Source: a virus
Strand: one strand, 5' to 3'
Length of the DNA: 44,415 bases
Virus record (IMG/VR): IMGVR_UViG_3300050026_000475
Location: 1-44,415 of that record
Numbering within the stretch: position 1 is the stretch's first letter; every line of letters starts with the position of its first letter. Positions 759 through 33,637 of this stretch are shown here, in pieces. The position numbers and the translations under genes are program-made. Under the pieces are notes generated by a model that was not told where the DNA came from, made no database searches, and saw only the letters and a program-made list of their open reading frames with translations.

Positions 759-781
759 AGCTTACCCTTTCGGGTCAAGCT
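759..781. terminator. Hairpin between convergent genes, likely bidirectional terminator
   Basis: AGCTT-ACCC, loop TTTC, GGGT-C-AAGCT forms a 9-bp stem with one bulged C. It lies at the junction of a + strand gene ending at 718 and a minus-strand gene ending at 775. The T-tract is weak, so termination is an inference. Confidence 0.45.
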
Positions 782-3573
782 TTCACCCATTTCCCCTCGC
801 TCCAGATATCTTTAATGGCTTTGGCTATCACTTCATTGGGGATGCTGGCCATACAAGCGTGGCAGGGGTGTGCATAATCCTGTCCAGGGGGATTGTCACA
901 TGGTCCTTGAGACATAGAGGAGATAGCGGGATCCTCTTTGTAACATGGACGACAGGGGAGTTTTACCCCAATGTTCAAGTTATGGTCATAACCAGAGCCT
1001 TGGGCACTCGTTGATCCCCAAATAATGACCGCAGGAACTTTATAGGGTCTGCCACCTTCTTTGCACCAAGTAAAATTGGTCACATGATTTGGGAAAGAGT
1101 CTACGCCCACGTGCATTTTTGCATTAGCAATCAGATCGATAGCCAGCTTAAGAGTTTTTCCCATATGAGTATGATCCGCTCCAGGAATTTTTGGGTCTCC
1201 CTCTCCACCAAGCTGCACAAATGGGATGCCAGGGCATTGCCTAACGATATCTTCCCAACGTTCAGCACTAATCGACTTGTACACTGACCACCCAGCCTTT
1301 ACCTGTATTGTTGCATAATTAGCTGGTAGCCCCAATTTTTCGAAATCAATACTCGGGGTATTCAGGCTCAAGGATGCCATCTCTTCAGGAAGTCCCATCT
1401 CTTTCGCAAAATATTTAATTAAGTGCTGACGCATCTCTACGTTAGGGTAGCCCTCATGAAGAGGATAACCGATTAAATTGATTACTTTTTCATATTCATG
1501 CATTTTACTTGGCAATAGATTGAAGTCAAACCACTTATCAACACCCGCTGTATAAAATAGCTTTTCCAGTTCAGCCCCTATTGCAGGGTGACAGTAATAG
1601 TGTATTTCGCAACCAGGGTGCTTCCTTCTCAAGTCGGGTATCAAATTTAAGGAAATCAAAATGTCTCCCACTGCTCCCGGACGGTTAAGGGCTATTTTTT
1701 TAACCTTCTTCGTCGTTTTTTTTAGATAATTCTGAGAGATTACGGCTTGATTGAGCGCACTGACCCGCCGATCCCACTCCTTATCCTCACACCCGATGTG
1801 TTTTGAGGCTTCGACAGCCCATTTGTAGGCCGCATCCTTGTCCCCAAGATTTTCATAGCAGAAAGACATTAGTCTTCTAGGCTGATCCTCACTTTTGTTC
1901 ATTTCCCGCCATAGTTCAGTGATCTCTATTTTACATTCCACAGCCCTATAGCAGTAGCCAACGCACTTTTGCCAGTCGCCATCCTGGAAGGCCATGTAGC
2001 CCAACTCCATCCAGAATTCAGCCCACTCTGGAGCCTTGGAGAGACCAAACAGGAGAGATTTCTCCGCTTCAGCCAACTTCCCACCGGCCCGTTCGCATCT
2101 TCCCTTGTAAAGGCAGGAAAATAGATACTCATCACGGAACGCATCTCCGAAATTGATTCGCATGTCATAATATTTGACGGCTTGGAGGTAACGGCCTGCG
2201 TCCTTGTGGGTATTGGCCAGATAGAAAGCGGTTCGGGGGTTCGGATCCTCAGCAATTTCCTCCTCAAGGATACGGAGGTTGCGCTGGTTGGAATTTTCAC
2301 CCACACCAGGGGCTGCATCATGCCGGATGACAGTATCCTTGAGGGTGATTCCAGGGTGACCACCGTGGTTTGGGTACTCGTGAATCCTACCCGAGAAGTC
2401 TATACCCAATCGTGTTTTCCACATCCTGTGATGCACCCATTGCATTTGCTGAGTGTCTATCATCATGCCAAATACTTTATACTGAGATAAATACACTGCT
2501 CGTTTAAAGTTAGCCGGTGTAAGCAGTTCATCATCCGCATCAAACCATACAAGGTAATCGGCGGTGGGAATCTGGTCAATTCGGTCCACAAACACGTTTC
2601 GAGCCTTGCTGAAGTCCCAGAGCTTCCAATCCCCGGTCTCATCTTGTCTTGAGGCCCCCGTATAGGTTTCATAAAGTAACGGCTTTGACCAAGAAGCCCT
2701 CGCTACTTCTTCAGTTTTATCAGTGGAGCCAGTATCAATCATAACCAGTCCATCCACCACACTTTCAATGGACTTGAGGACACGAGGGAGGTCACGCTCT
2801 TCGTTTTTGACGATCATTCCACACCAAACCTCGGGCTTTTTCTGCAAGGGGCGTAGAACTAAGTCACGCTGGCCTCCACCCTCCATGGGAGAGGTCCAGT
2901 CAACAGTAAAGAGGTCTTGTCCTTGAACTAAAAGTTCAAGAAGGCTGGTCAGAGAGTGGAAGAACGGATGTATCGTATAGTGACCTTCATCTAGGTCTCG
3001 TTCAAATCCGCTTACTCCGTGATCGGGAAGACGCAAAAAGAGGACTCCATCATCAGCCAACAGACTTTTCATTTTACGCAAGGCTTCAAGAGGATTGTAA
3101 ACATGCTCGAACATGTGGATCATAGTAATGACCTGGAACTTCTCCGTATGAGTCCATTCCCTAATCTGCTCCTCCGTTAGGGCCTCAAAATCAGCCATCA
3201 ACATCGGAACTCCAAGTTCCTTACTATACTCAGGCACTATCTCTATGTTGTCCATTGCAAAGGCATCACAACCTAGTTGTTGAAAACAGTGGCTTAACCA
3301 TGGCCACTTAGCCCCAATATCCAAGGTTTTCCCAGGCTTCCCACCCATAAAATTGGTAAAAATGCTCTCTGCGAGGGCTCGGTTAATGCCTTTCTCGTAA
3401 TCTGACATCAGATGCCCGGTAAACCCGCCATTTTCATCTTTTTCATGGGCCGCTTCGTACACTTTTGGGGGCATGGGGCTTTGGAACCAACAGTCACAGT
3501 TGTTACACATCCAGTATGGGGAGCTACCACACTTTTGCGAGGTTTCAGTGGAACAGATGGGGCATTTGGTCAT
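775..3573 (-). CDS. Multidomain methyltransferase / GT2 glycosyltransferase / TPR / GT9-like glycosyltransferase
   Basis: This 932-residue protein has four recognisable parts. Residues 1-30 form a zinc ribbon (CPIC at 4-7, CNNC at 23-26). About 60-230 is a SAM-dependent methyltransferase with motif I TLDIGA near 83-88 and HMFEHV near 155. About 248-430 is a GT2 glycosyltransferase with VKNEERDL, DTGSTDKT and the acidic FDADDE. About 440-620 is helical and TPR-like. From about 628 to the end it resembles GT9 heptosyltransferases (NRPGAVGDILIS near the start, HVGVDSFPNHV near 820). The start is supported by AAGGAG. I infer sugar transfer and methylation on a surface glycan or virion glycoprotein. 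Such a fusion in one phage polypeptide is unusual. The substrate is unknown. Confidence 0.85.
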   Translation of the reverse strand: MTKCPICSTETSQKCGSSPYWMCNNCDCWFQSPMPPKVYEAAHEKDENGGFTGHLMSDYEKGINRALAESIFTNFMGGKPGKTLDIGAKWPWLSHCFQQLGCDAFAMDNIEIVPEYSKELGVPMLMADFEALTEEQIREWTHTEKFQVITMIHMFEHVYNPLEALRKMKSLLADDGVLFLRLPDHGVSGFERDLDEGHYTIHPFFHSLTSLLELLVQGQDLFTVDWTSPMEGGGQRDLVLRPLQKKPEVWCGMIVKNEERDLPRVLKSIESVVDGLVMIDTGSTDKTEEVARASWSKPLLYETYTGASRQDETGDWKLWDFSKARNVFVDRIDQIPTADYLVWFDADDELLTPANFKRAVYLSQYKVFGMMIDTQQMQWVHHRMWKTRLGIDFSGRIHEYPNHGGHPGITLKDTVIRHDAAPGVGENSNQRNLRILEEEIAEDPNPRTAFYLANTHKDAGRYLQAVKYYDMRINFGDAFRDEYLFSCLYKGRCERAGGKLAEAEKSLLFGLSKAPEWAEFWMELGYMAFQDGDWQKCVGYCYRAVECKIEITELWREMNKSEDQPRRLMSFCYENLGDKDAAYKWAVEASKHIGCEDKEWDRRVSALNQAVISQNYLKKTTKKVKKIALNRPGAVGDILISLNLIPDLRRKHPGCEIHYYCHPAIGAELEKLFYTAGVDKWFDFNLLPSKMHEYEKVINLIGYPLHEGYPNVEMRQHLIKYFAKEMGLPEEMASLSLNTPSIDFEKLGLPANYATIQVKAGWSVYKSISAERWEDIVRQCPGIPFVQLGGEGDPKIPGADHTHMGKTLKLAIDLIANAKMHVGVDSFPNHVTNFTWCKEGGRPYKVPAVIIWGSTSAQGSGYDHNLNIGVKLPCRPCYKEDPAISSMSQGPCDNPPGQDYAHPCHACMASIPNEVIAKAIKDIWSEGKWVKA

Positions 3574-8928: not shown

Positions 8929-10278
8929 ATGGCAGAACTCCACTTTAATCATCCAGAGGACCACAATCCTCGTCAACATATGCACGTAGAGCACCCACCA
9001 ATGGTGCAGAACCTTATTGTTTTGAACAGCGATTACAACGGCTCCAGGGACCTCTGCTGGACTAATTTGGGTGATAAGAATGTAGTCGGCTATAACATAT
9101 ATAGAGCGTACGACTCCCCTACCGCATGGTCGCTTCTTAACACCACAGATCCGCTCCCCATCCCCTTCTATCGTGATCAAACTACTTACAAAACCGTAAC
9201 CTACACGGTGCAGCCTGCTGATTGGGTTAGCTTTGGTGGGGATGGCTCCTATGTGTTCAAGATTCCCACGGCCCCCATTTGGTCCGTTCCGGTTCCAAAG
9301 CGACACCCCACCGTAGCAAACAATCCGGCTGATGTACAACTCACTATTGATGGTGAGTTTGTCCCGGTTGCCAGGGTGGATGGCCAAGAAGCGTTGATTT
9401 ACATTCAACAATATGGTCTTGCAGGAGGTGGTTCCGTCACAGTCTTACCGACAACGGACTTTGTTCCAAATCAGATTACTACACATAGCGTGACCGTCAC
9501 TTATTATACCCTATTGAACTATGTGGACATTTATTTGGCTGGGGCGGCAGGAACTCGCACCTTTTATACGGTCGTTCCGGTCATGGCTGGAGGTTACGAG
9601 GCCCACAAGCCTGGGTTCTTCGGCACGGAGATGAAAACCACCTATGAGATTGACAGCATGGACTACATGTTGGCTGAAATGGTTCGAAGAAATGCGTTTA
9701 TCTTTGAACAATCGGGTGAGCCCGCTAATTTGATGATTCGTCGCACCAAAGGGACTCCTTGCGGCTGCTTGGTTGCGAATGGAGAGCCCCGCACCGGTTG
9801 TAATTCATGCTATGAGACTGGAATCATTGGCGGTTACTACGGCCCATACGAGATTTTGTTTATCGATCCAGATGTGGCAGCAACCCGAACTATAAATGAA
9901 GGTGGAGTGAAAGTGGAACGTCAAAGCCGCTCCTACTTGGGACCCACCCCGTTGATTGCAGCGGGTGATTTCATCGTTCGCCGCAATGGTGAGCGTTTGG
10001 TCATCTCAGACCCAGTTTACAAGTCCCCTCGTGGGGTTTTGGTGCAGCAGGACTTCAATGTGAACCTCTTGGGTGCCAATGATACTCGATACCAGATTCC
10101 TTTGGTCTCGCCGCAGCCCCCAGTTCTGCCAATCAAAACTTATGATCCTCGTTTTGTCGAAAAACGTGAACTTCCGGCTGAACCGCTCACCGATCCGACC
10201 GATAATCCGGATAAGCAGTGGGATAATGAGAAGAAGCCCAAGGGGCGCACCGTTGTCTTCGGCAACATCGAAACCTAA
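8929..10278 (+). CDS. Putative virion structural protein with fibronectin-like domain and Cys cluster
   Basis: This 449-residue protein opens with an extended region and a fibronectin-III-like beta domain (LCWTNLGDKNVVGYNIYRAYDS). A helical segment follows (YMLAEMVRRNAFIFEQSGEPANLM) and then a metal-binding-type cluster CGCx(10)CxxC near residues 277-292. The C-terminus has a compact beta segment (GDFIVRRNGERLVISDPVYK) and a charged proline-rich tail. Combined with its neighbours this suggests a neck, baseplate or tail-completion protein. The specific role is not known. The cysteines look positioned for Zn or a small metal site. Confidence 0.65.
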   Translation: MAELHFNHPEDHNPRQHMHVEHPPMVQNLIVLNSDYNGSRDLCWTNLGDKNVVGYNIYRAYDSPTAWSLLNTTDPLPIPFYRDQTTYKTVTYTVQPADWVSFGGDGSYVFKIPTAPIWSVPVPKRHPTVANNPADVQLTIDGEFVPVARVDGQEALIYIQQYGLAGGGSVTVLPTTDFVPNQITTHSVTVTYYTLLNYVDIYLAGAAGTRTFYTVVPVMAGGYEAHKPGFFGTEMKTTYEIDSMDYMLAEMVRRNAFIFEQSGEPANLMIRRTKGTPCGCLVANGEPRTGCNSCYETGIIGGYYGPYEILFIDPDVAATRTINEGGVKVERQSRSYLGPTPLIAAGDFIVRRNGERLVISDPVYKSPRGVLVQQDFNVNLLGANDTRYQIPLVSPQPPVLPIKTYDPRFVEKRELPAEPLTDPTDNPDKQWDNEKKPKGRTVVFGNIET

Positions 10279-10305
10279 TATTCATCCCCGCGAAGGATCA
10301 TTCGA

Positions 10306-10791
10306 ATGCTCACAACCGATATCATTCATAGTTTATCCGACACAAAACTTTATTCTAAGCCGCTCCGGCAGGCTTTAGAACCAAAGGTGATAATCAATCC
10401 GGAGTGGGCCTACTGGTATGCTCGGGATGTGATGAAACAAAGATGGCCGGAGGCGGAGCCGATGATTCGGACTGATCCACAATATACTTACTTGTATGCT
10501 CGGGATGTGATGAAACAAAGATGGCCGGAGGCGGAGCCGATGATTCGGACTGATCCGGAGCGGGCCTACCGGTATGCTCGGAGTGTGATGAAACAAAGAT
10601 GGCCGGAGGCGGAGCCGATGATTCTGACTGATCCACAATATACTTACTTGTATGCTCGGGATGTGATGAAACAAAGATGGCCGGAGGCGGAGCCGGTTAT
10701 CGCTAAGAATCCAAAGTATGCCTACCGGTATGCTCAGGATGTGATGAAACTAAACATGACGCAAGCGAAGAAATGGAGTAAGGGAAAATAA
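10306..10791 (+). CDS. WPEAEP tandem-repeat protein (five 26-residue units)
   Basis: After a 31-residue head (IIHSLSDTKLYSKPLRQAL), the protein consists of five 26-residue units containing YARDVMKQRWPEAEPMI, and it ends in KKWSKGK. The pattern suggests a helical solenoid, but no function is known to me. The coding DNA of units 1-4 is nearly identical, so amplification looks recent. A two-unit relative is encoded on the other strand at 31599-31865. The gene lies between structural genes and its stop codon runs into the 16-bp sequence AATCGGCACCGGCCTC, which recurs at 27105. A mobile or rapidly changing accessory gene is my inference. Confidence 0.75.
   Translation: MLTTDIIHSLSDTKLYSKPLRQALEPKVIINPEWAYWYARDVMKQRWPEAEPMIRTDPQYTYLYARDVMKQRWPEAEPMIRTDPERAYRYARSVMKQRWPEAEPMILTDPQYTYLYARDVMKQRWPEAEPVIAKNPKYAYRYAQDVMKLNMTQAKKWSKGK
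10399..10788 (+). repeat. Five tandem 78-bp coding repeats
   Basis: The anchor GATGAAAC recurs at 10431, 10509, 10587, 10665 and 10743, exactly 78 bp apart. Units 2 and 4 are almost identical over most of their length, while unit 5 is the most diverged. Identity at silent positions argues for recent duplication or gene conversion rather than protein-level selection alone. Confidence 0.9.
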
Positions 10792-10805
10792 TCGGCACCG
10801 GCCTC
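10790..10805 (+). repeat. 16-bp dispersed repeat, copy 1
   Basis: AATCGGCACCGGCCTC directly follows the repeat-protein coding region. An identical copy is at 27105-27120 between the capsid terminator and the HNH gene. A 16-bp match in 44 kb is not strongly improbable by chance, but both copies are intergenic and beside accessory genes. Confidence 0.45.
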
Positions 10806-10843
10806 AAATAATAACTTCCCATCTCCTATCATAGAGGTTACTC

Positions 10844-11227
10844 ATGGACTCAAAACATCTTGCTTCCCTAATTGCTGATAAAGTTGAAATCTGCGAAGAA
10901 GCAGATCCTGCGATGGACGCATCCAGTCAATTTGCTCAAACTGCTCCTGGTGTTCAGGATCAGATGGCCAACCCACTCAGCCCCATCATGCAGGATGCCG
11001 ATTTCTTCACTTATCTGATGCCCGGAGCCGTTTTTGAAGCTCATGATGGCTCTCAGTGGCTCATTACTGATTATGAGTGGGATGGCCGTATTGGAATTGA
11101 AAATCGCTGGTATCCCCGGCAGATTGCCAATGTTAACACCAACGATGTGAGGCGTTCTATATGTGCTTGGGTGGAACCGGTTAACGTCCGCGTACCCGCC
11201 CCTATCCCAGGTGTTGTATATAATTAA
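10844..11227 (+). CDS. Hypothetical structural-region protein
   Basis: This 127-residue protein has an acidic helical N-terminus and a compact beta-rich C-terminal domain (MPGAVFEAHDGSQWLITDYEW, then IENRWYPRQI). It is spaced 9 nt before the next gene with little intergenic DNA. The leader contains CTCCTATCATAGAGG, where AGAGG may be the ribosome site. A small tail or neck component is likely from context; I recognise no named family. Confidence 0.55.
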   Translation: MDSKHLASLIADKVEICEEADPAMDASSQFAQTAPGVQDQMANPLSPIMQDADFFTYLMPGAVFEAHDGSQWLITDYEWDGRIGIENRWYPRQIANVNTNDVRRSICAWVEPVNVRVPAPIPGVVYN

Positions 11228-11236
11228 GAGGCGTTA

Positions 11237-12829
11237 ATGCTTGATCTTACAGGTGAGAATTTAGCCACTTATCTTCTCCGTGAATTGCGGATGGTGGTGA
11301 ATCGAAATCCTCGCTTCAAGAGCTTGGGTGGCGAGACATTTGTTCAAGCATCCAACCTCATCCAGTGGGGGGATTTACAAATCCAAATTTCTAACGTATC
11401 CTCCTCAGGAAACCGCCTCAGTCCTGACTATTTCATGTGTAACCAGCATGGCCACACTGTTTTAGCCAAATTACAAGGTCATGATGGAGTGTTTGTTGAC
11501 TGGGTTCAGGAAAATCAAATCCTCACCAACAACGCTACCCCATCCAGCACCCTTGTTTGCCCGCAACCTGGAGTCTACTACTTAAATGTAGACTCAGTGG
11601 ATGAGGGAACTCGTGAAGTGGGGCTAACAGTCCAGACTTACACATGGTCAACTGGAAAAACGGGGTATGGGGTTGGTTCTGGAGTTTATTTTGCCCCAGC
11701 GATTGATGCATCCACCGTGCATACCGTAGACCCTACTGTTTCTTTTATAATTCAAGGGGGTCAGCTATACGTCACCTCCTACGCGACTCAGCAGCCCCTC
11801 CAACTCCGAACTCCTTCTCGTATACTAACCCCTAACGTGGATTTCTGGTATGTGAGGCAAGAGTCCTTTGTGATTTGTGAATCCACCTTCTCTGGCTCTC
11901 AGACTGTCACCCTTCCGGTCAGTTCCTATTCAAATCTGGTCATTACGGACCAAGATGGATACGAACTGCGAAGTGGCATTGATTACCAGTTCACTTCTTC
12001 TACCTCGATTCAACTCCAGCAATACACCCCTCCAGGGTCAACGCTTACGGGGACTTTTACCGTTAAGGCAGACCCAACGACCACTTCTGTAGTCCAGAGC
12101 GAGAATATGCTTCCCATTCCTCCCCTCTCCCCTTCCGAGCTTATGGCGGCGGGTCAGGTAGTGATTCGCTCAACTTTTGGCCCCGTTTACACCGAAACAG
12201 ATTTGACGGTTGCTGGGGATGGCACCATATGGCTCAACAACCTCCTTCGTCCCGGTGAAAAAATGCTTTGGGAGATCAGGGTTAACTCTGGGCAGAACAG
12301 CATGGTGGCTAAAAAGCTGGCTGCTAACAAGAATATCATCAATGGATTGACTATTGGAATTGGAGATATGGTTACGGTTGGGGACCAATGTGTAATCATG
12401 GTTTCCCCCAATCTAACAGAGACTTATGAAGTCTATGGCTCCAAAGAGAACGTCAGCTTTGAAATTAGGGTTAAGGCGAACGATAGACTCACGGCTTCAG
12501 ACATTTCCTCCATGATTCGCTCCTTTCTATTGGTTCAGGGGCGAGAGAACATGGAAGCGAACGGTTTGACCATATTCGAAATATCCAGAGCTTCAATGAC
12601 TGAACCGAAAGACATGAGTGGAGTCACCCCTTCGACCACATTTACCCTCACAGTGTCCGCTGCGGCTGATTGGGAGTATTATCTACCTCTTATCACCCGA
12701 ATCGGCTACTTTACGATTCAGATTGGTGGACCTACGGATGGTTTTATCACTGATTTTCCTGGAAAACCTGAAGTTTTACCTCGTCTTACCGCACTGGGAG
12801 CGGCTCAGTTCGTCCCATATTACGCCTAA
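11237..12829 (+). CDS. Putative tail/neck structural protein, beta-rich
   Basis: This 530-residue protein begins with a helical stretch (YLLRELRMVVNRNPRF) and is then mainly beta-rich, with several Ig-like segments (QTVTLPVSSYSNLVITDQDGY, GTFTVKADPTTTSV). It ends in PKDMSGVTPSTTFTLTVSAA followed by an aromatic-rich tail. GAGGCG sits just before the ATG. Position immediately upstream of the FmdB-like and sheath genes suggests a tail completion, neck or sheath-terminator role. The exact function is not assigned. Confidence 0.6.
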   Translation: MLDLTGENLATYLLRELRMVVNRNPRFKSLGGETFVQASNLIQWGDLQIQISNVSSSGNRLSPDYFMCNQHGHTVLAKLQGHDGVFVDWVQENQILTNNATPSSTLVCPQPGVYYLNVDSVDEGTREVGLTVQTYTWSTGKTGYGVGSGVYFAPAIDASTVHTVDPTVSFIIQGGQLYVTSYATQQPLQLRTPSRILTPNVDFWYVRQESFVICESTFSGSQTVTLPVSSYSNLVITDQDGYELRSGIDYQFTSSTSIQLQQYTPPGSTLTGTFTVKADPTTTSVVQSENMLPIPPLSPSELMAAGQVVIRSTFGPVYTETDLTVAGDGTIWLNNLLRPGEKMLWEIRVNSGQNSMVAKKLAANKNIINGLTIGIGDMVTVGDQCVIMVSPNLTETYEVYGSKENVSFEIRVKANDRLTASDISSMIRSFLLVQGRENMEANGLTIFEISRASMTEPKDMSGVTPSTTFTLTVSAAADWEYYLPLITRIGYFTIQIGGPTDGFITDFPGKPEVLPRLTALGAAQFVPYYA

Positions 12830-12839
12830 AAGGAGATTT

Positions 12840-13262
12840 ATGGCCATCAGAGAGTACAAGTGTTCATCCTGTGGGGTTATGATTGAAAAAATCATTCCCA
12901 CTGCCCAGATTCCAAAAGAATCCATCCCTTGCACAAAATGTGGGGAGAGTGCAGCCTTCCAGCCCATTCCCTCCAGTGTGGGTCTTTTGACGGAGAACTT
13001 CTCCGAACAGAAGATTGACATAACTATTGGAAAGGATGCAAATCGTCGCTGGCAAGATATTTCTGATAGAAATGAGCTACGAGAAAAAGTTAGGGCACAG
13101 TCAGGAGAGGTCGGACTCTCCATGGTTGGACGGAATGAGTTCGCACCCCTTCCCGAAACCGAAAAGAAAAATAGGACGGAAGCCCTTGCAGCCGTTACAA
13201 AAGATGGCTTCCGTCACGCTCCGGACACCAAAACTGACCGGAAGATTTTAGGCACTGATTAA
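12840..13262 (+). CDS. FmdB-like zinc-ribbon protein
   Basis: This 140-residue protein begins MAIREYKCSSCG and has CxxC pairs at residues 8/11 and 31/34, with the typical IREYKC start of FmdB-family zinc ribbons. The remainder is charged and probably helical. AAGGAG is 5 nt upstream of ATG 12840; earlier in-frame starts lie within the previous gene and lack sites. Small zinc-ribbon proteins occur in phage structural and transcription modules; here it precedes the sheath gene. The molecular role is unknown. Confidence 0.75.
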   Translation: MAIREYKCSSCGVMIEKIIPTAQIPKESIPCTKCGESAAFQPIPSSVGLLTENFSEQKIDITIGKDANRRWQDISDRNELREKVRAQSGEVGLSMVGRNEFAPLPETEKKNRTEALAAVTKDGFRHAPDTKTDRKILGTD

Positions 13263-13353
13263 AGTGGCGAAAGAAAAGACTTCTCCGACCTAAAATGAAA
13301 CCACGATATTAAAGGGCTCTTGATCCAATTCGCAACCATAGGGAGAGATAAAC

Positions 13354-16300
13354 ATGGCTCTGTTCGCACAATATACCGCACCGGGTGTTTACACGTTTGA
13401 AACGGTGAGCAACCCCGGAGTTATCACCTACGGGAATATTCGCCTTCCCGTGTTCATCGGTGAGGGACAGGAGACCTTCTCTGTAACCAACGTTGAGACA
13501 CATCGCGGAAGTTCCGCATACGCCGATGACTTGGTAGTTAATGAGACCCTCCCAGTTCTGACGATTGGCCAGTTGAACTTCCAGTTGACTTATACCCCCA
13601 TTGTTACGGGGAATGGAACCGGAACCCTCACCAACACCCCCACTGACCTCACCGTCACCCTCTCCGATGGAGTCACCCCAGTTGTGGTGACCAGCCTTAA
13701 TGGAACGACTGGTGCTTTCTCCATTTTCTCTATCTACCCAGTCGGCACCGAACTGATGGTCACCTACTACTTCAAGCGCAAGGACACTTATATTGCGAAT
13801 GAAAACGATGCCCCCCAAGTTCCCACTTTTGCTACCTGGAATGCTGATTCCAACTTCCCGCTTACCCTCTCCCTTCCTGGTGAGCTTGGGAACGATGTGG
13901 ACTTGGGCTTCACCTTCACCGCAGCCTCCCCAGTTTCTGACGCACAGGCAATTAGCGGCGTGGGAACCGATGCAATCTCCATCGAATTGAACGAAGCTGC
14001 TCTTACACTCAGCACCACCGGCGACCTCACCTTTGCGACCCATACGGTTCAACGTGCTTCTGGTTCGTGGGTAACAGATGGTGTGGGCGTGGGCACTGCC
14101 GTTCGTTTTGCTGCCACGACTGCTAACAACACTGCTTCAGGAGCCTACCTGATTGTCACTGGAGTTTCTACCACTACCACTGCAAATGACACCCTGACTT
14201 TTGCCAGCACCTTCACGGTTGAAGTGGATGCGTCTGCTACGGCAACTGCCTATATGGTCCGCACCTATGGTGATCTGGCAAATCTCCTCATCGTGGGAAT
14301 TCCCACCCTGGCTGGTAACCTAGTCCTTCAGGCTCCTCTCTCCAGCGGAATCGCTGCCAATACTGTGGCGGCTGTGGTTGCCTCTGCTCCATTCACTGGT
14401 GGTGCAGGCCCCAACTCCAACACCGTTTTCACCACCTCCTTCGTCCCTGTCGTAGATGGCACCAACGGCGGAGTCGTAACCACCAACCCAGCTTACATGA
14501 AGGCTTTGGTCAATGGTCAGCCAGCTACCGTCGCCTCCCTGAATGGTCAGACCGGAACTTTTGTCATGGCTTCCCCAGTTTTGGCCGGTCAGACCTTCAC
14601 CGTCAGCTACTTCACCAACAAGTATCAGGATACTTACGACATGATTCCTGCTACTAACGTGATCAGCATTGATGCTGTGGGTTACGGCCCAAGTCGCAGC
14701 GATTTCGTCAACGGTGTGGATTATGTCCTTCAGACTCCCCCCAATGCGGATGCTCGTATTCAGTGGGGTGGCTCTGCTTCAGTCATGGCAGGAACGGCCA
14801 CCGCTGGCTACACCCCATTTAGTGCTTCGGTTATCACCGATACGTTGGTGGATGAGATTATGTTCCTCCGCCCCGTTCAGGGAGCCGTCACCGGCAAGAA
14901 TTACACCTTCACTCTCTCTGACACCCCAACTGATGGGTCTGGTCTGAGTGCTGTTACCAACAACCCCGCCTTGGTCCATGTTTACGTTGGCACCAGCCCA
15001 GAGGAAGCTCTTCTGGCCGGTGAGGTTCGCGTCACTCAGGTCGTTGGGGACACCGGCACGGTTGTGCTTTACAATCCCCCCGCCACTGGCCAGAGTGTGT
15101 ATGCCACCTACTACCGTAACATCCTGAATGACCACACCTTCACTCTGTCAGTGGTCAACCCAGGAATCACCGGTCAGGGCACCTACTCAATCGCTGATGA
15201 GAAGGGGAATGTTCTCCCATCCATCACCTCCGGAGCCTCTTCGGTTACTGAAGCCGCCTTCCTAGAATACGGTGGGGTCGTTTGGCCCAATAAGTTCTCT
15301 GATTTGAACGGTGTGGGTGGAAGTAGCCCCGATGAGACCGTTACTGTGACCTTCCAGGAAGGGGATGCTCCATTTATCATCACTCCTGGTATTCAGGCCA
15401 CCCTGATCTCCGCTGTGAACGTTGGCTTGGAGTTCACCGCCACTAATTTCGGCACCGGACCCAACACTGTGGCCTCTATCATCTTTGTTGGAGCCTCTGC
15501 TAAGGCTGACTCTGCTGCTATCTCGGTAACGAGCAACGCAGTGACCGTATATATTGAGAAAGCGGACACAACCACTCGCACCCTACAGGATATTCTCAAC
15601 CTCTTCGTCACCTACCCCACTTCTACCCCAACAACCGGTGTGATTATCGCCTCCACTGTGGGTACCCCCAACCTCACTACTTCGGCTTCGGCTGGTGCGA
15701 TAGAGCACTTCACTGGCGGGGTTGCCACCGTCCAGACCCCTCGCTCCCTGCACTACTGTGTGACTTCCAGCCGTACCGCTCTCCAGGCTAGCGCTGATGG
15801 ATTGGGTATCACTGGTGGGGCTACAACCCCTGTGGGTTCCAATGTTGGTTCCAACGCTGTGGGAACTACCGGTTGGCTCAACCAGACCTTCCTGGACCCC
15901 AATACGGGTGTTCAGTTCACCATCCTCAATCCGGATGATGTTCTGGCTGATCCTCTCTACGGCTTCCAGTCTCTCCCATCTCCTCGTTACCACTTTGAGC
16001 CGGGGGATACCCTCACCTTCGTCACCAGCAAAGCAACCGCTCGTACCGCCAGCGTTGTCCCAACCGTCAACGTCTATGGCTTGAACCTGGAAGTCATCTC
16101 CACCTACGGCATGAACGCAGGGGATACGGCTCTCGTGACCACCTTCAACGCCTCCGGAAACGAGCCCTCTGTCGGAGATTACTACTACATCTCATACACG
16201 ACCGAGAAGAATGCCTCCGATTTCGCCTTGAAGATATTCGATAACACGGGTGACGCTTACACTCAGTACGGTGTTCCCACTCCCGAAAACCGCCTCTCCA

Positions 16301-17226
16301 TGGCAGTCAGTCTGTTCGCTCAGAATGGCGGAAACATCTTCGCCTGCCTCCAGGTTCCCAAGCAGACCGGTTTGAATACCGCAGCCGATCAGACCTACAT
16401 CAACGCAATCAGCACTCTAGCTGCTCCAGTTCCTGGAAACGAGCAGAAGGCTGGTATGATTCAGGTTCTGACCACTAGCCCAACGGTTATTCAGTACCTG
16501 AGCCGTTTCCTCCTGACCCAAGCCTCCCCACGTAACAGTGGAGAAGCGATGAGTGTTTACGGATATGGTTTCTCTGACACTCCTTCGTCCATGATCAGCC
16601 TAGCTAGTAGTCTGAAGAGTGAACGCATGATTGGAATTGGAGCCATCGGAGCAGTTCTCCAGCTTGTCAATCCCACCACTGGCGTGGCCGTCAACTACAC
16701 AGTTGATGGGTCCTTCCTCGCCGCCGCAATGGCGGGTATGATGGTCGATCCAGCCATCGACGTTGCCACCACCCTGACTCGTCAGAGCATGGTTGGATTC
16801 CAGGGTCTCATCACTCGTTACGATGACCCCACCATGGATTCGATGACCGCTAGCGGCCTAACTTGCCTTGTGGAAAACCCCGGAGCCTTCATTGTCCGTC
16901 ACTGGGTCACCACCGACAACTCCAGCCCCCTGAAGCGCGAACCTACTTCTCGCTTGGTGGTCGATTATGTTCGCCAGACGATGCGTGGTAGCTTGAACCA
17001 GTTTATCGGTCGCAAGCTCATCCTCAGCACCCTCAACACCGTTACTTCAGTGGTTAGTTCCACTCTAGTCAGCTTGGTCGCTGAGGAGGTTATCGAGGGT
17101 TACAGCACCATCGTAGTCGCCGCTGACCCCTCTGATCCAACTACCCTGAATGTTAGCTTTACAATTAAGCCGATTTTCAGCTTGCTCTGGATCTCTGTAC
17201 AGCTCACCGTAACCACCCAGCTTTAA
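13354..17226 (+). CDS. Tail sheath protein, very large with inserted Ig-like domains
   Basis: The N-terminus (FAQYTAPGVYTFETV) and the C-terminal region from about residue 960 (SGEAMSVYGYGFSDT, VDGSFLAAAMAGMMVDP, the PTSRLVVDYVRQTMRGSLNQ area) fit contractile tail sheath proteins. The full length, 1290 residues, is about two to three times a usual sheath. The excess is a series of beta-rich modules sharing a TG-x(10-20)-YY pattern followed by a D-x-(Y/F) end, near residues 115-145, 396-428 and 565-595. These are probably surface-exposed decorations. GGGAGAG precedes the ATG, and a strong hairpin follows the stop. It should form the contracting outer tube around the tail tube encoded at 20454. 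Confidence 0.88.
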   Translation: MALFAQYTAPGVYTFETVSNPGVITYGNIRLPVFIGEGQETFSVTNVETHRGSSAYADDLVVNETLPVLTIGQLNFQLTYTPIVTGNGTGTLTNTPTDLTVTLSDGVTPVVVTSLNGTTGAFSIFSIYPVGTELMVTYYFKRKDTYIANENDAPQVPTFATWNADSNFPLTLSLPGELGNDVDLGFTFTAASPVSDAQAISGVGTDAISIELNEAALTLSTTGDLTFATHTVQRASGSWVTDGVGVGTAVRFAATTANNTASGAYLIVTGVSTTTTANDTLTFASTFTVEVDASATATAYMVRTYGDLANLLIVGIPTLAGNLVLQAPLSSGIAANTVAAVVASAPFTGGAGPNSNTVFTTSFVPVVDGTNGGVVTTNPAYMKALVNGQPATVASLNGQTGTFVMASPVLAGQTFTVSYFTNKYQDTYDMIPATNVISIDAVGYGPSRSDFVNGVDYVLQTPPNADARIQWGGSASVMAGTATAGYTPFSASVITDTLVDEIMFLRPVQGAVTGKNYTFTLSDTPTDGSGLSAVTNNPALVHVYVGTSPEEALLAGEVRVTQVVGDTGTVVLYNPPATGQSVYATYYRNILNDHTFTLSVVNPGITGQGTYSIADEKGNVLPSITSGASSVTEAAFLEYGGVVWPNKFSDLNGVGGSSPDETVTVTFQEGDAPFIITPGIQATLISAVNVGLEFTATNFGTGPNTVASIIFVGASAKADSAAISVTSNAVTVYIEKADTTTRTLQDILNLFVTYPTSTPTTGVIIASTVGTPNLTTSASAGAIEHFTGGVATVQTPRSLHYCVTSSRTALQASADGLGITGGATTPVGSNVGSNAVGTTGWLNQTFLDPNTGVQFTILNPDDVLADPLYGFQSLPSPRYHFEPGDTLTFVTSKATARTASVVPTVNVYGLNLEVISTYGMNAGDTALVTTFNASGNEPSVGDYYYISYTTEKNASDFALKIFDNTGDAYTQYGVPTPENRLSMAVSLFAQNGGNIFACLQVPKQTGLNTAADQTYINAISTLAAPVPGNEQKAGMIQVLTTSPTVIQYLSRFLLTQASPRNSGEAMSVYGYGFSDTPSSMISLASSLKSERMIGIGAIGAVLQLVNPTTGVAVNYTVDGSFLAAAMAGMMVDPAIDVATTLTRQSMVGFQGLITRYDDPTMDSMTASGLTCLVENPGAFIVRHWVTTDNSSPLKREPTSRLVVDYVRQTMRGSLNQFIGRKLILSTLNTVTSVVSSTLVSLVAEEVIEGYSTIVVAADPSDPTTLNVSFTIKPIFSLLWISVQLTVTTQL

Positions 17227-17233
17227 ACTCGAA

Positions 17234-17253
17234 TGGGGGACTTCGGTCCCCCA
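17234..17253 (+). terminator. Hairpin after sheath gene
   Basis: TGGGGGAC, loop TTCG, GTCCCCCA is a perfect 8-bp stem with a stable tetraloop, 8 nt after the sheath stop. The following sequence TCTATCCTTCT is pyrimidine-rich but lacks a clean T-run, so it may attenuate transcription or stabilise the mRNA end rather than fully terminate. Confidence 0.65.
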
Positions 17254-17274
17254 TCTATCCTTCTGGAGATTTGA

Positions 17275-18027
17275 GTGAAGATTCATCCAACCGTACAGCA
17301 CCTGAATGGCATCGTAACTGTTGCTCTTCAGGCATCGTTTGTTGGCGACTCCACGGATGCAACCGACAAACAACGTATCGCTGCATACTCTGATCCCCTA
17401 GTAAACCTAGGAGGACTATTCACCAGTCCATCCCTTCCATCCATCGGAACCATCACTCTTACCGGAATCCCTAATCCAACTGAAACATTTGCTATTGATA
17501 CCCAATTGTTTACCTGGATTGCTTCAGGCACACCAACCACCGGGCAGGTTCTCCTTGGCACTGATGCCCCAACCAGTGCTGCAAATATCATCACTGCTAT
17601 TACCGCTGCTGCCTTAACGACTGTTACGGCTTCGATTAGTGGTTCAGCCATCACTGTTACCGCCGTGACTAATGGGGAAGCAGGCAATCAAATAGCTTTC
17701 TCTGATGTTTCCTCCAATATGACAATGGATGGTAATGGCACCCTCGGCGGCACCCAATTTGGGCGAGAAGCCATCACCTTCCAGATGGGGTCAGCAGAAG
17801 TTTTCAGGGGAGTGACGACTCAAATGGCTCAAACTCCAGTGAGTTTCATGACTCAGCTTCCACTAGGTTCCCCAGGTCTCCTACCCACTCAGTCCATCTG
17901 TTCAGATCCAGTGAATGCTGCGGCTGCTTGGTGTGAGCAGATGGACTCACGTATTTCTTTAGTGATGACAGCCTTGCGAGGAAATGAACCTCCGCAACTT
18001 GTTGCGCTTCCTGATTCCACAGTGTAA
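17275..18027 (+). CDS. Putative tail protein with inserted Ig-like domain
   Basis: This 250-residue protein starts at GTG 17275 with CTGGAG upstream. Residues 1-55 and 165-250 seem to form one core (DKQRIAAYSDPLVNLGG, then EAITFQMGSAEVFRG and MDSRISLVMTALRG). The middle (about 58-160) is a Thr/Ala-rich beta module (ITLTGIPNPTETFAID, SAANIITAITAAAL) of a type common in phage tail proteins. It sits between the sheath and tube genes, so a tail function is likely. The precise role is unknown. Confidence 0.6.
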   Translation: MKIHPTVQHLNGIVTVALQASFVGDSTDATDKQRIAAYSDPLVNLGGLFTSPSLPSIGTITLTGIPNPTETFAIDTQLFTWIASGTPTTGQVLLGTDAPTSAANIITAITAAALTTVTASISGSAITVTAVTNGEAGNQIAFSDVSSNMTMDGNGTLGGTQFGREAITFQMGSAEVFRGVTTQMAQTPVSFMTQLPLGSPGLLPTQSICSDPVNAAAAWCEQMDSRISLVMTALRGNEPPQLVALPDSTV

Positions 18028-18038
18028 GAGGTAAAAAC

Positions 18039-20378
18039 ATGCGTTCTAACAGACTTAATGACCGATTAAACAAAATGGCTCTTGAGCAGACCGATAAAAA
18101 GGACTGGCCCAAGGATGAAAACCTAGAAGAGCTTGATGTTCCGGGTAACAAGGCTGTTTCGGTTTCTAAGAGTGGGAGTGCAGCTTGCAAGTGTGGTGAA
18201 GAAGGCTGTGCCGGTTGCGACAAAGACAAGAAAACCTCGGCCTGCACCTGTGGGAAACCCGGCTGCTCTGATTGCGGCGCAAAAAAGAATGCTGATTGGA
18301 TTGGTGATTTGGTTAAACAAACCGTGCAGTATCTGACTCAACACAGGAATGACCCTGATCTGATTGAGAAAATCCAACCCCTTCCACTCGCTCGCAAGGT
18401 CGGCCCCGCCGCTCTCCAGAATCCAGTCAATCAGTTTGTGCAGGATGGCAACTCTTCTGCACTGGCTGGAGAACTGGAAACTATTGTCCAAGGCAAGCGA
18501 ACAACTGCATCCAAAAAGAAAGCTGAGGAGTCCTCCGTGGAAATTGATGCCCCCAAGAAAACAGAAACCCCAGGCGAACAGCCCGAAGGGTTTGTTGATC
18601 CAAAACGTCCCATCCCTGCTGAAAAGCCGGTCAAACCATCTGCTGACAACGCTCCCAAGGCTGCAAATCCAGAGCTTCCTGGCACTCATCGTCGCGTAAA
18701 GCTGGATGAGAATACCGAGCCCGATCCATCCCCCACCGCATGGTCAGTGGACAATACTCGTGAACTTCAACACAAGGCGGCTGGCAATTTTGATACCAAG
18801 AAGCCCCCTGAAAATAAGGTTAACCCCGCACCTACCTCTTATTCGGTGGACAACACTCGTGAAACTCGGCGTGAAGTCAAGGAACTCACTACGGAAGAGC
18901 AGGATCAATTAAAACGTAAGAATGGCTCTGATTTGCAGGTTTTCACTCCCAAGACGGCTGAAGAGATTGACATGATTGTTGAGGCTTCGGGTTCATGGGT
19001 AGGCCATCGTCTAGCTACTGGCACTTTCCAGAGAGGAATGCCCAGTTTTATCATTAACGCCACCGAAGCCATCGCCGTAGTGTCCGCACAGGGCGATTGC
19101 TTTGACGCCCAGGCCACCAGTCCCACTAACAAGTATGCAGCCATCCTGAGCCCCTCCAAGCCCGCTAGCAAGTCTGCGGCGGGTGGTTCCTCAGAAGAGC
19201 CTGAGTCTGAAGAAGAAACCTCTGTTGACTCAGTTGTCGTCTCCCTACTTGAAGCCTGCAAGACCGAATGGACTAGCCTTGGAGATCCTGTCAACCCAGC
19301 TACTTGGCCAAAAGAAATTGACCGTGCGTTGCTGAGTCTTAATGACGAGATTGTCGCAGCAATCCAAAAGGTTGAGGATAAGTTAGTTGAAGGCGAGTTC
19401 TACAGCAAGAATGTAGATGAAGGTCTTGAGGGTGGGGGTAGCTCTGTTGGAGTTGGCTCTCTGAATGTTGCACCTCCTGAAGAAGAAGTTCCTGAGTCCC
19501 CTGAGTCAATGGAAATGGGTGAAGAGGGAATGGGTGAAGAGGGAATGGGTGAAGAGGGAATGGGTGAAGAGGAAGGTCTGAACACCGCAGCGGATGAAGC
19601 CGACGAGGCCCTCATTCCTGAGGCTCCGAAAACCGGTGGTTTGAAGAGTGCGGCGGCTAAGACAGCCGTAGAGTTTCCCGATGTCTCGGCTGCGGAAACC
19701 CGCAAAGCTCTGAAGTTTACCCAGTCTCTCAAAGAGGACATTGCCGACAAGTTTTTTGAGTTCAAGAAGATCGTCCAGGAAGCAAATGACTCCTCCTTGA
19801 TCAAGAATGTCGGAGAAGTTTTTGTTGGATTGAAGACAAAGCTCGAAGAAGTGGAGAAAATCCTTTCGAAGCAGATTCAGGTTCTTGAGACCGCTGAATC
19901 CGCCATTCAGGACAAGAAAGACCTCAATGCTAAGAAATCTTTCCTTATGGCTGACGGTGGAACTCCTTGTGAGAAGTGCGGCGAAACTGTGATGCACTCC
20001 CCCTATGGGAAGGCTGATGGCCCAGTCGTTTGCGACAAGTGCCAAGGTGGGAAGAAGGAAGAGACAAAGACTTCTTCAGACGAACGTGATAGCTGTTCTG
20101 ACCATGAGGGCACAGTAGAGAAGGAAGCTTCCGCTAAGAAGACCGCCGCCTGCCCGGTCTGTGAAGCCACGGTGATGCAGAACGGCAAGGATACCAATGG
20201 TGTCACATGCCCCAACTGCGCCAACAAGCCCTCCGTACAGACCCCAGGAACTCCAACAAATACGACTCCAGCCGCACCTAAACTGCCCCAGAACGGACCA
20301 GTCAGTCCATCTCCAATCAAGCAGTATGGCTCCAAGTCTAAGTTTAATGGACTGAATCTCGCTGCGGCGGGAGAGTAA
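18039..20378 (+). CDS. Large zinc-motif, low-complexity virion-region protein
   Basis: The 779-residue protein has two tandem CxCGxxGCxxC clusters near residues 48-60 and 68-80, long Pro/Lys/Glu-rich linkers, and a twice-repeated SVDNTRE motif. It also has a GMGEE repeat tract (about 492-512), a coiled-coil-like helix region (about 555-630), and two zinc ribbons near 643-672 and 704-730. It shares the CxCGxxGC type motif and DHEGT(V/I)EK with the protein at 37344. It lies between two tail genes, so a virion or assembly protein is likely. The function is unknown. The translated length is well supported by continuous coding character. Confidence 0.65.
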   Translation: MRSNRLNDRLNKMALEQTDKKDWPKDENLEELDVPGNKAVSVSKSGSAACKCGEEGCAGCDKDKKTSACTCGKPGCSDCGAKKNADWIGDLVKQTVQYLTQHRNDPDLIEKIQPLPLARKVGPAALQNPVNQFVQDGNSSALAGELETIVQGKRTTASKKKAEESSVEIDAPKKTETPGEQPEGFVDPKRPIPAEKPVKPSADNAPKAANPELPGTHRRVKLDENTEPDPSPTAWSVDNTRELQHKAAGNFDTKKPPENKVNPAPTSYSVDNTRETRREVKELTTEEQDQLKRKNGSDLQVFTPKTAEEIDMIVEASGSWVGHRLATGTFQRGMPSFIINATEAIAVVSAQGDCFDAQATSPTNKYAAILSPSKPASKSAAGGSSEEPESEEETSVDSVVVSLLEACKTEWTSLGDPVNPATWPKEIDRALLSLNDEIVAAIQKVEDKLVEGEFYSKNVDEGLEGGGSSVGVGSLNVAPPEEEVPESPESMEMGEEGMGEEGMGEEGMGEEEGLNTAADEADEALIPEAPKTGGLKSAAAKTAVEFPDVSAAETRKALKFTQSLKEDIADKFFEFKKIVQEANDSSLIKNVGEVFVGLKTKLEEVEKILSKQIQVLETAESAIQDKKDLNAKKSFLMADGGTPCEKCGETVMHSPYGKADGPVVCDKCQGGKKEETKTSSDERDSCSDHEGTVEKEASAKKTAACPVCEATVMQNGKDTNGVTCPNCANKPSVQTPGTPTNTTPAAPKLPQNGPVSPSPIKQYGSKSKFNGLNLAAAGE
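19515..19572 (+). repeat. 15-bp tandem coding repeat (GMGEE), four units
   Basis: The unit ATGGGTGAAGAGGGA begins at 19515, 19530, 19545 and 19560; the last copy is slightly altered. Units are identical at the DNA level, so slippage-driven copy-number change is likely. Confidence 0.9.
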
Positions 20379-20453
20379 AATGAACTTTATATCTACAGAA
20401 TCCTACTCTGAGGGTTCAATGCTTAACTTGCGTTCCAATAGGGGGATCTAAAC

Positions 20454-21140
20454 ATGGCCAATTCACCTTTCACCGATAGCTATCTTTACAGACAGGGGAC
20501 AACGGCCCAGACTAAGACCGTAATCTCCAGCCGCTTCAAGATTTTTACCCATGCGGTAGGAGTCGGCAAATTTGTGAAGATGGGTGTCACTTCCAGCTTC
20601 AATATCTCAGAATCAAAGAATGTGGAAGCCATTCGCGGTCTGGGTTATGGTGACATCGTTGCCGAGCTTGTGCCCGGTATCACCCAGCCGATGACGCTGA
20701 CGATTAACCGCACCGCACTCTACCTTGCCAACATCATGCAGATGTTGGGTTACAAGGCCGGTGTGAGCGGCTTGGTCCGTAGCCTCAAACATCACAAATG
20801 GCCATTTGATATCAAGACCGAGATCGCATTCAGCGAACTCGCCTCAAAGGCTCAGAATGTCGGTCAGGCAGACTTGGCTGATGTGGCCGCAGAGGGTGGG
20901 TTAAACAACTACGGCAACACCGGCCTCTATGCGGTCGTCACCATCTATGAGGGCTGCTGGATGGAGTCCTACACCTCTAACTTCCAGATTGAACAGGCAG
21001 CCGTTACCGAAGACGCAACCATCATCGTCACCGATGTGTTTGATGTCAACGGATCCGTTTACGGAGACTTCATTAACTCTGGTCTGGCTCCTTCAGATGT
21101 TACCGGTGCCTCGCTCCTCTTCTCTGGTACCACTTCCTAA
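20454..21140 (+). CDS. Tail tube protein
   Basis: This 228-residue protein shows features expected of myovirus tail tube proteins: a length near the family norm, an N-terminal region SRFKIFTHAVGVGKFVKMG, a beta-hairpin region with RGLGYGDIVAELVPGITQPMT, and a C-terminal beta segment (ATIIVTDVFDVNGSV). GGGGGATCT lies upstream of the ATG. It follows the sheath module and precedes the capsid module. It probably forms the inner rigid tube through which DNA passes. The stop overlaps the next start (TAATG), indicating coupled translation. Confidence 0.75.
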   Translation: MANSPFTDSYLYRQGTTAQTKTVISSRFKIFTHAVGVGKFVKMGVTSSFNISESKNVEAIRGLGYGDIVAELVPGITQPMTLTINRTALYLANIMQMLGYKAGVSGLVRSLKHHKWPFDIKTEIAFSELASKAQNVGQADLADVAAEGGLNNYGNTGLYAVVTIYEGCWMESYTSNFQIEQAAVTEDATIIVTDVFDVNGSVYGDFINSGLAPSDVTGASLLFSGTTS

Positions 21141-21823
21141 TGAATGAATTGTTGAAGAAGCACTCGCCCTCAGCCAATAAAGAGGCGGGCGCTTCTTTGC
21201 TTGTTCGTAAAGAGGCTGTGGACGCAGAATTGACCGAATTGGCCAGACCGGGTGTGGGAACTATCTATGACCGAGAATATCAGACTGGAGGGAACCCATT
21301 CGCTAATAAGCGACCCGCTAACCCCAATCAGAATGATGATGCGGTTCCGGTTGCCCCAGATTCTAAGGAAGTGACCGCTGAACTCCAGACTGAGATGGTT
21401 GGAGAGGGTGGGAAACGTCACCAACGCCACTATCCCATGAAAGACAACAAAATAATGTCCGAAACGACAAAAGAAGAAATTGGAGACGAGCAGGGTGAGG
21501 ATTGGATCCATCACCACAGCAGCTTGACGGCCAAAGTTCACTCTTATGACTTTGAACAGGATCGAAATCGTAAGATTGCAAATAGAGTGGCGGCTAACCG
21601 CTACTTCAAGCAGTATGTCTCGGCAGAAAACATCAAAACCAACAACGATATCCTTATGGTCAACATTCCTCGCGGAAAAGTTGCTCAGGCGGAGTTCAGT
21701 CCCACAGCCATGCTTCGTATGGAACGAGAACTCTCTACCACTTTGAATGTACGTGCTAAATATGCACATGTAGTGCTCAACGCTGGCTTCGATGGAGTTT
21801 GCTTCGAGTTCATGTTGGTTTAA
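21140..21823 (+). CDS. Hypothetical protein between tail tube and prohead protease
   Basis: This 227-residue protein starts in a TAATG overlap with the tube gene. The N-terminal half is charged and disordered (with NKEAGASL and RKEAVDAE), and a compact C-terminal domain runs from about SYDFEQDRNRKI to the end (FDGVCFEFMLV). The protease gene begins 2 nt after the stop region, so the three genes are probably translated together. The role is not recognised; a tail or head assembly component is likely from position. Confidence 0.55.
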   Translation: MNELLKKHSPSANKEAGASLLVRKEAVDAELTELARPGVGTIYDREYQTGGNPFANKRPANPNQNDDAVPVAPDSKEVTAELQTEMVGEGGKRHQRHYPMKDNKIMSETTKEEIGDEQGEDWIHHHSSLTAKVHSYDFEQDRNRKIANRVAANRYFKQYVSAENIKTNNDILMVNIPRGKVAQAEFSPTAMLRMERELSTTLNVRAKYAHVVLNAGFDGVCFEFMLV

Positions 21824-21824
21824 G

Positions 21825-22694
21825 ATGAAGAAGCAAGCCACTGGCGTTCTCTCAGACCCTATAATCAGCCTCACGCAGTGGGATAAACTGCACGGGGGGA
21901 AGTTTGGTCACAAGAACGCTTCTTTCTCTAAAATTGCTGGTAATACTTCCAAATATTTGCTCTCCCATGTGACCATTATGGCCTCTGTGATGTGCGAAAA
22001 AGATCCCACAGACTGGCTAATTGTTCCAGAATGCAGTTACTTGGTCAACAACAATGATGATGGCTGGGAAAATACAGTTTTAAAGATGTCCTATAGAAGT
22101 TTTGTTGGTGCATTTAATTTTCTGGAGCACTATCAAAACAGTAAAGCGGCGAAAGGCCACATCCTTGATGCCGTCCTACGTAAGATACACCTTAATTCTG
22201 AAGTTTGGGCCTATTTCGTGGATCTGCTGGTTGCAACCGATCTCTCTAATGAGGATCTGGTTCACAAGATCAGAAGCGAGAAAATAAAGTATCTCTCTAT
22301 GGGATGCACCACAGATTTAGTCGTCTGCTCCTACTGTGGGCAGCGAGTTACGGATAATGGCAACTACTGTTCTCACCTCCAATACAATAAAGGCTCATTC
22401 CTTCCCGATGATGATGGTATTCCTCGTCGTGTAGCAGAGTTGTGCGGCCATAAGACCCTACCAAATGGTGGTGTCCGGTTTATCGAAGCCAGTTGGGTCG
22501 CTATCCCTGCATTCCCCGGTGCCTCCGTTCAGAAAATCATTTCTACAGATTGGGAAGGCCCAAAAACAGCCTTTACCAAAGATGCGGAATTGTTAGACGC
22601 TAGTGGTCATCGGACCTCCAGCAAAGCTGCATCCCAACTAGTTCTACCCAAACCCTCAGCCCTCACGGCTGAACTTGGTCGCTTAAAGCTATAG
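21825..22694 (+). CDS. Prohead (capsid maturation) protease-like protein
   Basis: The 289-residue protein has an AAKGHILDAVLRKIH segment, then VDLLVATD and KIKYLSMGCTTD. The Ser of the SMG motif fits the nucleophile of HK97/T4-type prohead proteases, with an upstream His as partner. A CSYCG-x(n)-CSHL knuckle follows, and the later FIEASWVAIPAFPGA also fits the family as I know it. It is placed directly before the acidic scaffold-like gene and the capsid genes, the usual order. It would cleave scaffold and capsid N-termini during head maturation. ATG 21825 was chosen as the start just after the preceding stop; the frame continues upstream without a good site. Confidence 0.7.
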   Translation: MKKQATGVLSDPIISLTQWDKLHGGKFGHKNASFSKIAGNTSKYLLSHVTIMASVMCEKDPTDWLIVPECSYLVNNNDDGWENTVLKMSYRSFVGAFNFLEHYQNSKAAKGHILDAVLRKIHLNSEVWAYFVDLLVATDLSNEDLVHKIRSEKIKYLSMGCTTDLVVCSYCGQRVTDNGNYCSHLQYNKGSFLPDDDGIPRRVAELCGHKTLPNGGVRFIEASWVAIPAFPGASVQKIISTDWEGPKTAFTKDAELLDASGHRTSSKAASQLVLPKPSALTAELGRLKL

Positions 22695-22709
22695 TACCAT
22701 TAATAAACT

Positions 22710-22730
22710 AGAGAGTTAAAACAACTTTCT
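22710..22730 (+). other. Small hairpin in leader of scaffold-like gene
   Basis: AGAGAGTT, loop AAAAC, AACTTTCT forms an 8-bp stem with one G.U pair in the 85-nt gap before the scaffold-like gene. It could be an RNA processing or stability element; it has no T-run. Confidence 0.35.
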
Positions 22731-22779
22731 AACCCCAGGAATAGAGAGCCTATTTCACCACCAAAAAGGAGTCAGAACC

Positions 22780-31865: not shown

Positions 31866-31899
31866 TGGATGCCCTTAGCGACCTCTACTAGTGAATCGA

Positions 31900-31924
31900 G
31901 AAGTCCACAGCACAAATGGACTTC
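31900..31924. other. Perfect 8-bp inverted repeat
   Basis: GAAGTCCA, loop CAGCACAAA, TGGACTTC lies in the 97-bp gap between the divergent genes starting at 31865 (minus) and 31963 (plus). It could be an operator or an mRNA hairpin. It has no T-run. Confidence 0.5.
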
Positions 31925-31962
31925 CTACTTCTTAGGATGTAGACTTTCTATTAGGAGCCCCT

Positions 31963-32166: not shown

Positions 32167-32179
32167 TCGGGATAGAATA

Positions 32180-33085: not shown

Positions 33086-33103
33086 TCCTTTGGAGGAAAC
33101 CTC

Positions 33104-33636: not shown

Positions 33637-33637
33637 A

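Follow-up and report, generated by a model that had tools for sequence, protein, structure and literature searches.

A 26-residue WPEAEP repeat of large phages as a candidate modular binding solenoid with a variable face and shuffled units

A short phage gene made of 26-residue repeats with a WPEAEP core is read here as encoding a modular solenoid with a variable binding face that is diversified by recombination, a reading to which we give a probability of about 0.55. The scaffold is conserved, one face is variable and the units are shuffled and differ in number between relatives, and that combination points to the design of a modular binding protein. The gene, copy 1 below, occupies positions 10306–10791 of the plus strand of the window, by which is meant the whole 44,415-nucleotide stretch analysed (IMG/VR record IMGVR_UViG_3300050026_000475), which is part of the genome of a large contractile-tailed phage.

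Copy 1 encodes 161 amino acids from an ATG start, 5′ of which the sequence has a Shine-Dalgarno-like GAAGGA (plus strand, 10292–10297), and the orthologous frame is open in the relatives G001 and G004. An N-terminal cap (residues 1–30) is followed on the plus strand by units 1 to 4, NPEWAYWYARDVMKQRWPEAEPMIRT (10396–10473), DPQYTYLYARDVMKQRWPEAEPMIRT (10474–10551), DPERAYRYARSVMKQRWPEAEPMILT (10552–10629) and DPQYTYLYARDVMKQRWPEAEPVIAK (10630–10707), and then by an incomplete fifth (10708–10788), helix A of which is NPKYAYRYAQDVMK. The first-pass annotation counted five units spaced 78 bp apart. Five helix-A copies are indeed there at an exact 26-residue spacing, with the variants YARDVM, YARSVM and YAQDVM, but WPEAEP is complete in only four units and the fifth runs instead into the C-terminal cap that ends the array, KLNMTQAKKWSKGK. 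TRF finds the 78-bp array at 10409–10758 (score 486) and a higher-order period of 156 bp (score 576), both far above chance, and the identity of units 2 and 4 in their first 66 bases implies that blocks of two units were copied. How alike are the units at silent sites? The same annotation had them nearly identical, and that stands only in the 3′ two-thirds of each unit. In the first third, silent and coding sites both diverge, and the four full units together give a pS of 0.24 and a pN of 0.14. The codons for KQRWPEAEP are invariant in all four.

The AlphaFold2 model of copy 1, built on an alignment of 65 sequences, has a pLDDT of 91 and a pTM of 0.82, and in it each unit is a 12-residue helix A plus a 7-residue helix B, with end-capping helices at lower confidence. 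A solenoid had earlier been suggested from the sequence, and the prediction, a confident two-helix solenoid, agrees; going by the model, copy 1 is very probably an alpha-solenoid of a two-helix repeat. Solenoids of the HEAT, ARM and Pumilio type are of a similar kind, with stacked helix pairs, though their units are longer, at about 36–47 amino acids. Foldseek found no PDB fold matching the repeat model at an E-value of 0.001 or below, and VIA-align against the HEAT/ARM/PUF class gave Z of 4–6 (at most 6.3), weak matches in tied rows with Pumilio among them. With even the top PDB alignments this weak, and tied with one another, no function can be read from the fold.

What does stand out is where the units differ. 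The six most variable positions of helix A lie within an arc of 120 degrees, which is equalled by 5 of the 1716 possible six-position subsets. Within arrays (104 of them), pN/pS at positions 3, 4, 7, 10 and 11 is 1.95 against unit-wide pS and 1.38 against local pS, and at core positions it is 0.34; as the face positions were picked after their variability had been seen, and the pairs were restricted to those of low pS, which raises the ratio, these figures should be taken as the description of a pattern, with no formal test of selection implied. A helical wheel, taken with conservation, suggests that A5, Y8, A9, V12, W17, P18, E19, E21 and I24 are buried. Could the variable residues of successive units instead read bases, in the manner of PUF or TALE proteins? 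Copy 1 is a basic protein (pI 9.5), Pumilio domains are among the weak structural matches just mentioned and some relatives have N-termini that by inspection are HTH-like (L052). However, the variable residues include many aromatic and acidic ones from which a base-reading code is not evident, and the HTH_35 and FF matches are short fragments summed over repeats, and we regard a sequence-specific nucleic-acid-binding solenoid as unlikely.

The WPEAEP repeat is an undescribed family, though the type of object, a helical repeat solenoid, is already known. It is defined by 26-residue units with [RP]WPE[AG]E..I..(D/N)P..A..YA..V, the column statistics being from 164 distinct units, and copy 1 falls within it. 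No Pfam or NCBIfam family and no PDB sequence describes the repeat (profile A3 gave no match in the PDB), a text search of the literature found no mention of RWPEAE or WPEAEP, and no known domain family with a fixed architecture, which would have told against the first-pass reading, was found. For the window protein, none of the TPR, HEAT, ARM, ankyrin and PUF families of Pfam appears at E up to 1. The leucine-rich repeat variant (LRV, PF01816) is likewise a short helical repeat, its Pfam profile having 26 positions, but hmmscan found no LRV match to the window protein (E up to 1), and the window as a whole gave none either (E up to 0.1); any link between the two would be a remote one. Several apparent matches were discarded. 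Those to FF, DUF982, HTH_35 and FRD3 cover 10–30 positions and are short fragments summed over repeats; FF (PF01846, 50 residues) reaches 30.2 bits, above its cut-off of 22, but its best stretch covers profile positions 13–37 only, and in the relative L006 positions 20–35 only, the same repeat-summing effect. A PDB match to Crov539 (0.015) was a biased alignment.

Where does the family occur? Profile scans of IMG/VR found relatives in at least 162 stretches, on contigs of up to 478,840 bp, and the 157 distinct ORFs from the loci kept have 2 to 18 units each with open frames. One scan of 84,980 cellular species matched four contigs, three of them from one Lokiarchaeota MAG and the other from a Deltaproteobacteria MAG. 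The Lokiarchaeota-binned contigs (WJMJ01000105, WJMJ01000154 and WJMJ01000145; L074–L076) carry genes for a major head protein, RNA ligase and HNH endonucleases, and so are probably viral contigs in the bin. With four contigs in all, and phage genes on the Lokiarchaeota ones, a cellular origin of the repeat was rejected, and the family is nearly exclusive to viruses. One contig, G007, packs about 27 repeat ORFs in tandem into 18.6 kb and gives 102 profile matches. In the first 18.6 kb of contig IMGVR_UViG_3300035181_001867 (L078, L081), each of about 27 tandem ORFs joins a near-identical N-terminus, MKLRDLFEAMDLYKYHSNPE, to a WPEAEP array of its own. Among isolated phages (INPHARED, tblastn), the window protein and the relatives L019 and L066 gave either no match or chance matches at E 6–9, and L061 matched only through a domain characterised by the residues WCT; the relative L052 had no match in plasmids.

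Two known objects come closer. The profile of PHROG 28193 (681 positions, function unknown) matches L066 (E 4.1e-21) and L061 (E 9.8e-5), in the latter across the WCT region and the start of the repeats, whereas its match to the window protein, which lacks a WCT domain, is too slight to be of use (E 0.0098 over 49 residues, about 48 of the 681 positions). The isolated jumbo phage SCTP-2 of Salicola (440 kb) encodes gp435, in which a WCT-type domain precedes two diverged repeats (A2 profile, E 8.7e-9). The top fold match, an entry of 648 amino acids in BFVD (probability 1.00), is taken from its equal length to be this protein. Unlike the window protein, gp435 is long and multidomain, with degenerate repeats and no array.

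The genomic setting of copy 1 raises the question of whether its product is part of the particle. The window encodes a tail sheath (13354–17226) and a large terminase (42271–44124), together with a UvrD-type helicase and a dNMP kinase, and the nearest isolated phage is Tunturiibacter phage Tunturi_5 (308,711 bp), with identities of 45.5% for the terminase and 45% for the sheath. From gp322, a minor tail protein, to gp332, the gene order of Tunturi_5 is that of window positions 8929–24036, a collinear block that takes in the head maturation protease (59%) as well as the sheath and the tail terminator. Copy 1 sits between the plus-strand orthologues of gp322 (8929–10278, 48.6% identity) and gp323 (10844–11227, 54.5% over 88 amino acids), where Tunturi_5 has 68 bp, and a repeat profile search of all 308,711 bp of that phage found no match. 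The conserved order from gp322 to gp332, along with the lack of the repeat in Tunturi_5, makes copy 1 an accessory member of an otherwise conserved operon of virion genes. Other features of the region are on record. The sheath is unusually long (1290 amino acids) and is matched by the sheath PHROG over residues 960–1287 only, and by gp326 of Tunturi_5 over most of its length. The minus strand at 775–3573 encodes a 932-residue protein in which a methyltransferase domain is combined with a glycosyltransferase-like region and with TPR-like repeats; a homing-endonuclease-like ORF (phrog_655, E 8.7e-23) lies within the structural gene region at 27234–28484; and short tandem repeats of 12–21 bp lie in proline-rich coding stretches at 23170–23315 and 30343–30404.

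A virion or ejected protein, packaged or a part of the tail, with its variable face meeting the host after DNA ejection in the way of the T4 internal proteins, is a possibility to be kept in mind, if on balance a doubtful one. The neighbours of copy 1 in the head-tail operon, orthologues of minor tail protein, tail terminator, sheath and head maturation protease, would suit it. In relatives the repeats follow the WCT-containing domain, which is N-terminal in 31 of the 157 repeat ORFs and of which a homologue, PA5oct gp279, has been detected in virions by MS. Across 25 aligned WCT proteins the only invariant features are the initial M, the WCT triplet and a single E close to residue 11, and a capsid-targeting-like M[KR]...(hydrophobic)xE is present in 11 of 17 distinct WCT N-termini as against 14 of 234 background proteins, though the common ancestry of these N-termini inflates the count. 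The T4 internal proteins are diverse anti-defence proteins with only a targeting sequence in common (PMC3012670), and the head proteases of giant phages cut after E (PMC5694885). However, the WCT domain and the N-terminal motif are both missing from the window proteins (N-terminus MLTTDIIHSLS), and their N-termini, MLTTDIIHSLSDTKLY and (V/M)LAYNIIKSLSSTKLY, also lack the T4-type signal for capsid targeting, in which the protease site ends in E, so the lead from WCT and PA5oct is not directly transferable to them; besides, a second copy in the window lies outside the operon. A model of the WCT domain (pLDDT 81, pTM 0.45) gave no clear PDB fold, the best match being to polo-box domains (Z 4.7, 68 residues).

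That units come and go is seen most directly in close relatives. The IMG/VR contig G001 is about 99.2–99.4% identical to window positions 301–31761, but has four units in copy 1 to the window's five. Of the 141 substitutions in 31.4 kb, 34 are inside the 486-bp ORF and none is in the kilobase on either side of it. G004, with a sequence identity of about 74%, has four units too, and those are of its own types. In the second copy the window has two units and G002, which is from the same metagenome as G001 and differs from window positions 31866–44415 by 10 substitutions in 12.5 kb, has at least five. The change of copy number that had been proposed from the window alone is thus borne out, and unit number varies among relatives where a stable one would have counted against the proposal. 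Yet short-read metagenome assembly can mis-set unit number, and could the differences be no more than artefacts of it? The longest exact internal repeat of copy 1 is at least 66 bases and several relatives' contigs stop at arrays, as is expected where repeats defeat short-read assembly: G002 ends within its copy 2 array, G001 starts within that same array, and G003 ends within an array of at least seven helix-A copies, so that exact unit numbers need long reads. However, the G001 array differs from the window's by many substitutions in its unit types as well as in length, and G004, at its greater distance, has four units with types of its own; we find the artefact explanation very unlikely. 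A second hotspot between the window and G001, with 32 substitutions in 250 bp (20250–20500), is at the 3′ end of ORF 18039–20378, which is syntenic with gp328, a DNA ejection protein of Tunturi_5, and carries a perfect 15-bp tandem repeat (MGEEG) at 19514–19572. Long collagen-like glycine-rich repeats (TGLTGNSGATG), probably of fibre proteins, occur in G003, in G004 and at about 33.3–36.8 kb of G001 (L025/L026).

Was the array recently amplified, as the first-pass annotation had it? Copy number does change, but in the close group all 23 readable units are distinct, 57 of 253 informative site pairs fail the four-gamete test, and at least four recombination events are needed inside the 78-bp unit. 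From their sequences these 23 units are recombinant mosaics of a limited pool of variants, and with every unit distinct and mosaic, turnover and shuffling fit better than a single fresh expansion. Of the 188 30-mers found in the G001 array and not in the window's, 101 recur in arrays of the group at other loci or in other phages. Unit bases 40–53 and 55–63 are invariant in the close group, a good substrate for homologous recombination, which may be what shuffles the units.

The gene itself moves as well. A search of the window with the copy 1 protein brought up copy 2, absent from the earlier annotation, on the minus strand at 31602–31865: 88 amino acids from a GTG start, with two helix-A copies and one WPEAEP. 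G004 has no copy 2 at the matching place, and in G006 some 274 bp alone match the window (31619–31892, minus strand, 86%) at an otherwise unrelated locus, which gives the extent of the cassette. The final codons of copy 2 (TYRAVK, then the stop; 31602–31622) overlap, in antisense, the 3′ end of the plus-strand neighbour ORF 30637–31617, which suggests insertion into the window and not loss from G004; the stop codon seems to have been taken from the landing site. As judged from these comparisons, the repeat gene comes and goes as a mobile accessory cassette. Dispersal of this kind, unit turnover and antisense placement are also what would be expected of a selfish or near-neutral repeat gene, spread as a cassette and drifting by slippage with no selected binding function, but the core is conserved (pN/pS 0.34), changes are concentrated on one face, and the frames stay open throughout the 157 ORFs of 2–18 units, and such a gene is in our view decidedly unlikely.

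On the preferred reading of a variable binding solenoid, helix A (unit residues 2–13) would be followed by a turn and then by helix B, WPEAEPxI, with the nine residues listed above as putatively buried forming the scaffold and residues 3, 4, 7, 10 and 11 a single exposed face that differs between units. Long stretches of identical core DNA, present in all the units, would let homologous recombination and slippage add, remove and reshuffle units, both inside a copy and from one copy to another, and by this the binding face would change faster than the rest of the genome, the accessory cassette having one copy in the head-tail operon and the other antisense elsewhere. That the solenoid binds a partner is suggested by the variable helix face, and the partner is probably a host factor or host defence. 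There is some likeness to the T4 internal proteins and to the polyvalent phage proteins (PMC3012670, PMC5512222), which are also fast-changing accessory phage proteins, and some WPEAEP relatives, like them, have capsid-targeting-like N-termini or enzyme domains (a nucleotidyltransferase in L144); polyvalent proteins, however, have several enzyme domains per chain, and the window protein is 161 amino acids of repeat and caps only. Going further, it may be, though we hold this as a speculative and rather improbable extension, that large phages maintain a repertoire of variable receptors, built from helix repeats and subject to recombination, some of them carried in the capsid by means of targeting-like N-termini and then ejected to bind host defences that keep changing and to neutralise them; this would be the phage's counterpart of diversified recognition repeats.

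The family is then one that is nearly virus-exclusive, on large-phage contigs of up to 479 kb, absent from Pfam and NCBIfam and with no PDB profile match, and in isolated phages there is no clear repeat match other than the degenerate one of SCTP-2. The repeats of its arrays explain why metagenomic phage contigs break at such loci. Its conserved scaffold and its one variable face are cleanly separable and its arrays turn over between near-identical phages. If it is a variable binder, it would be a natural scaffold for repeat-protein engineering, and it would give a direct handle on the host molecules that large phages must keep chasing.
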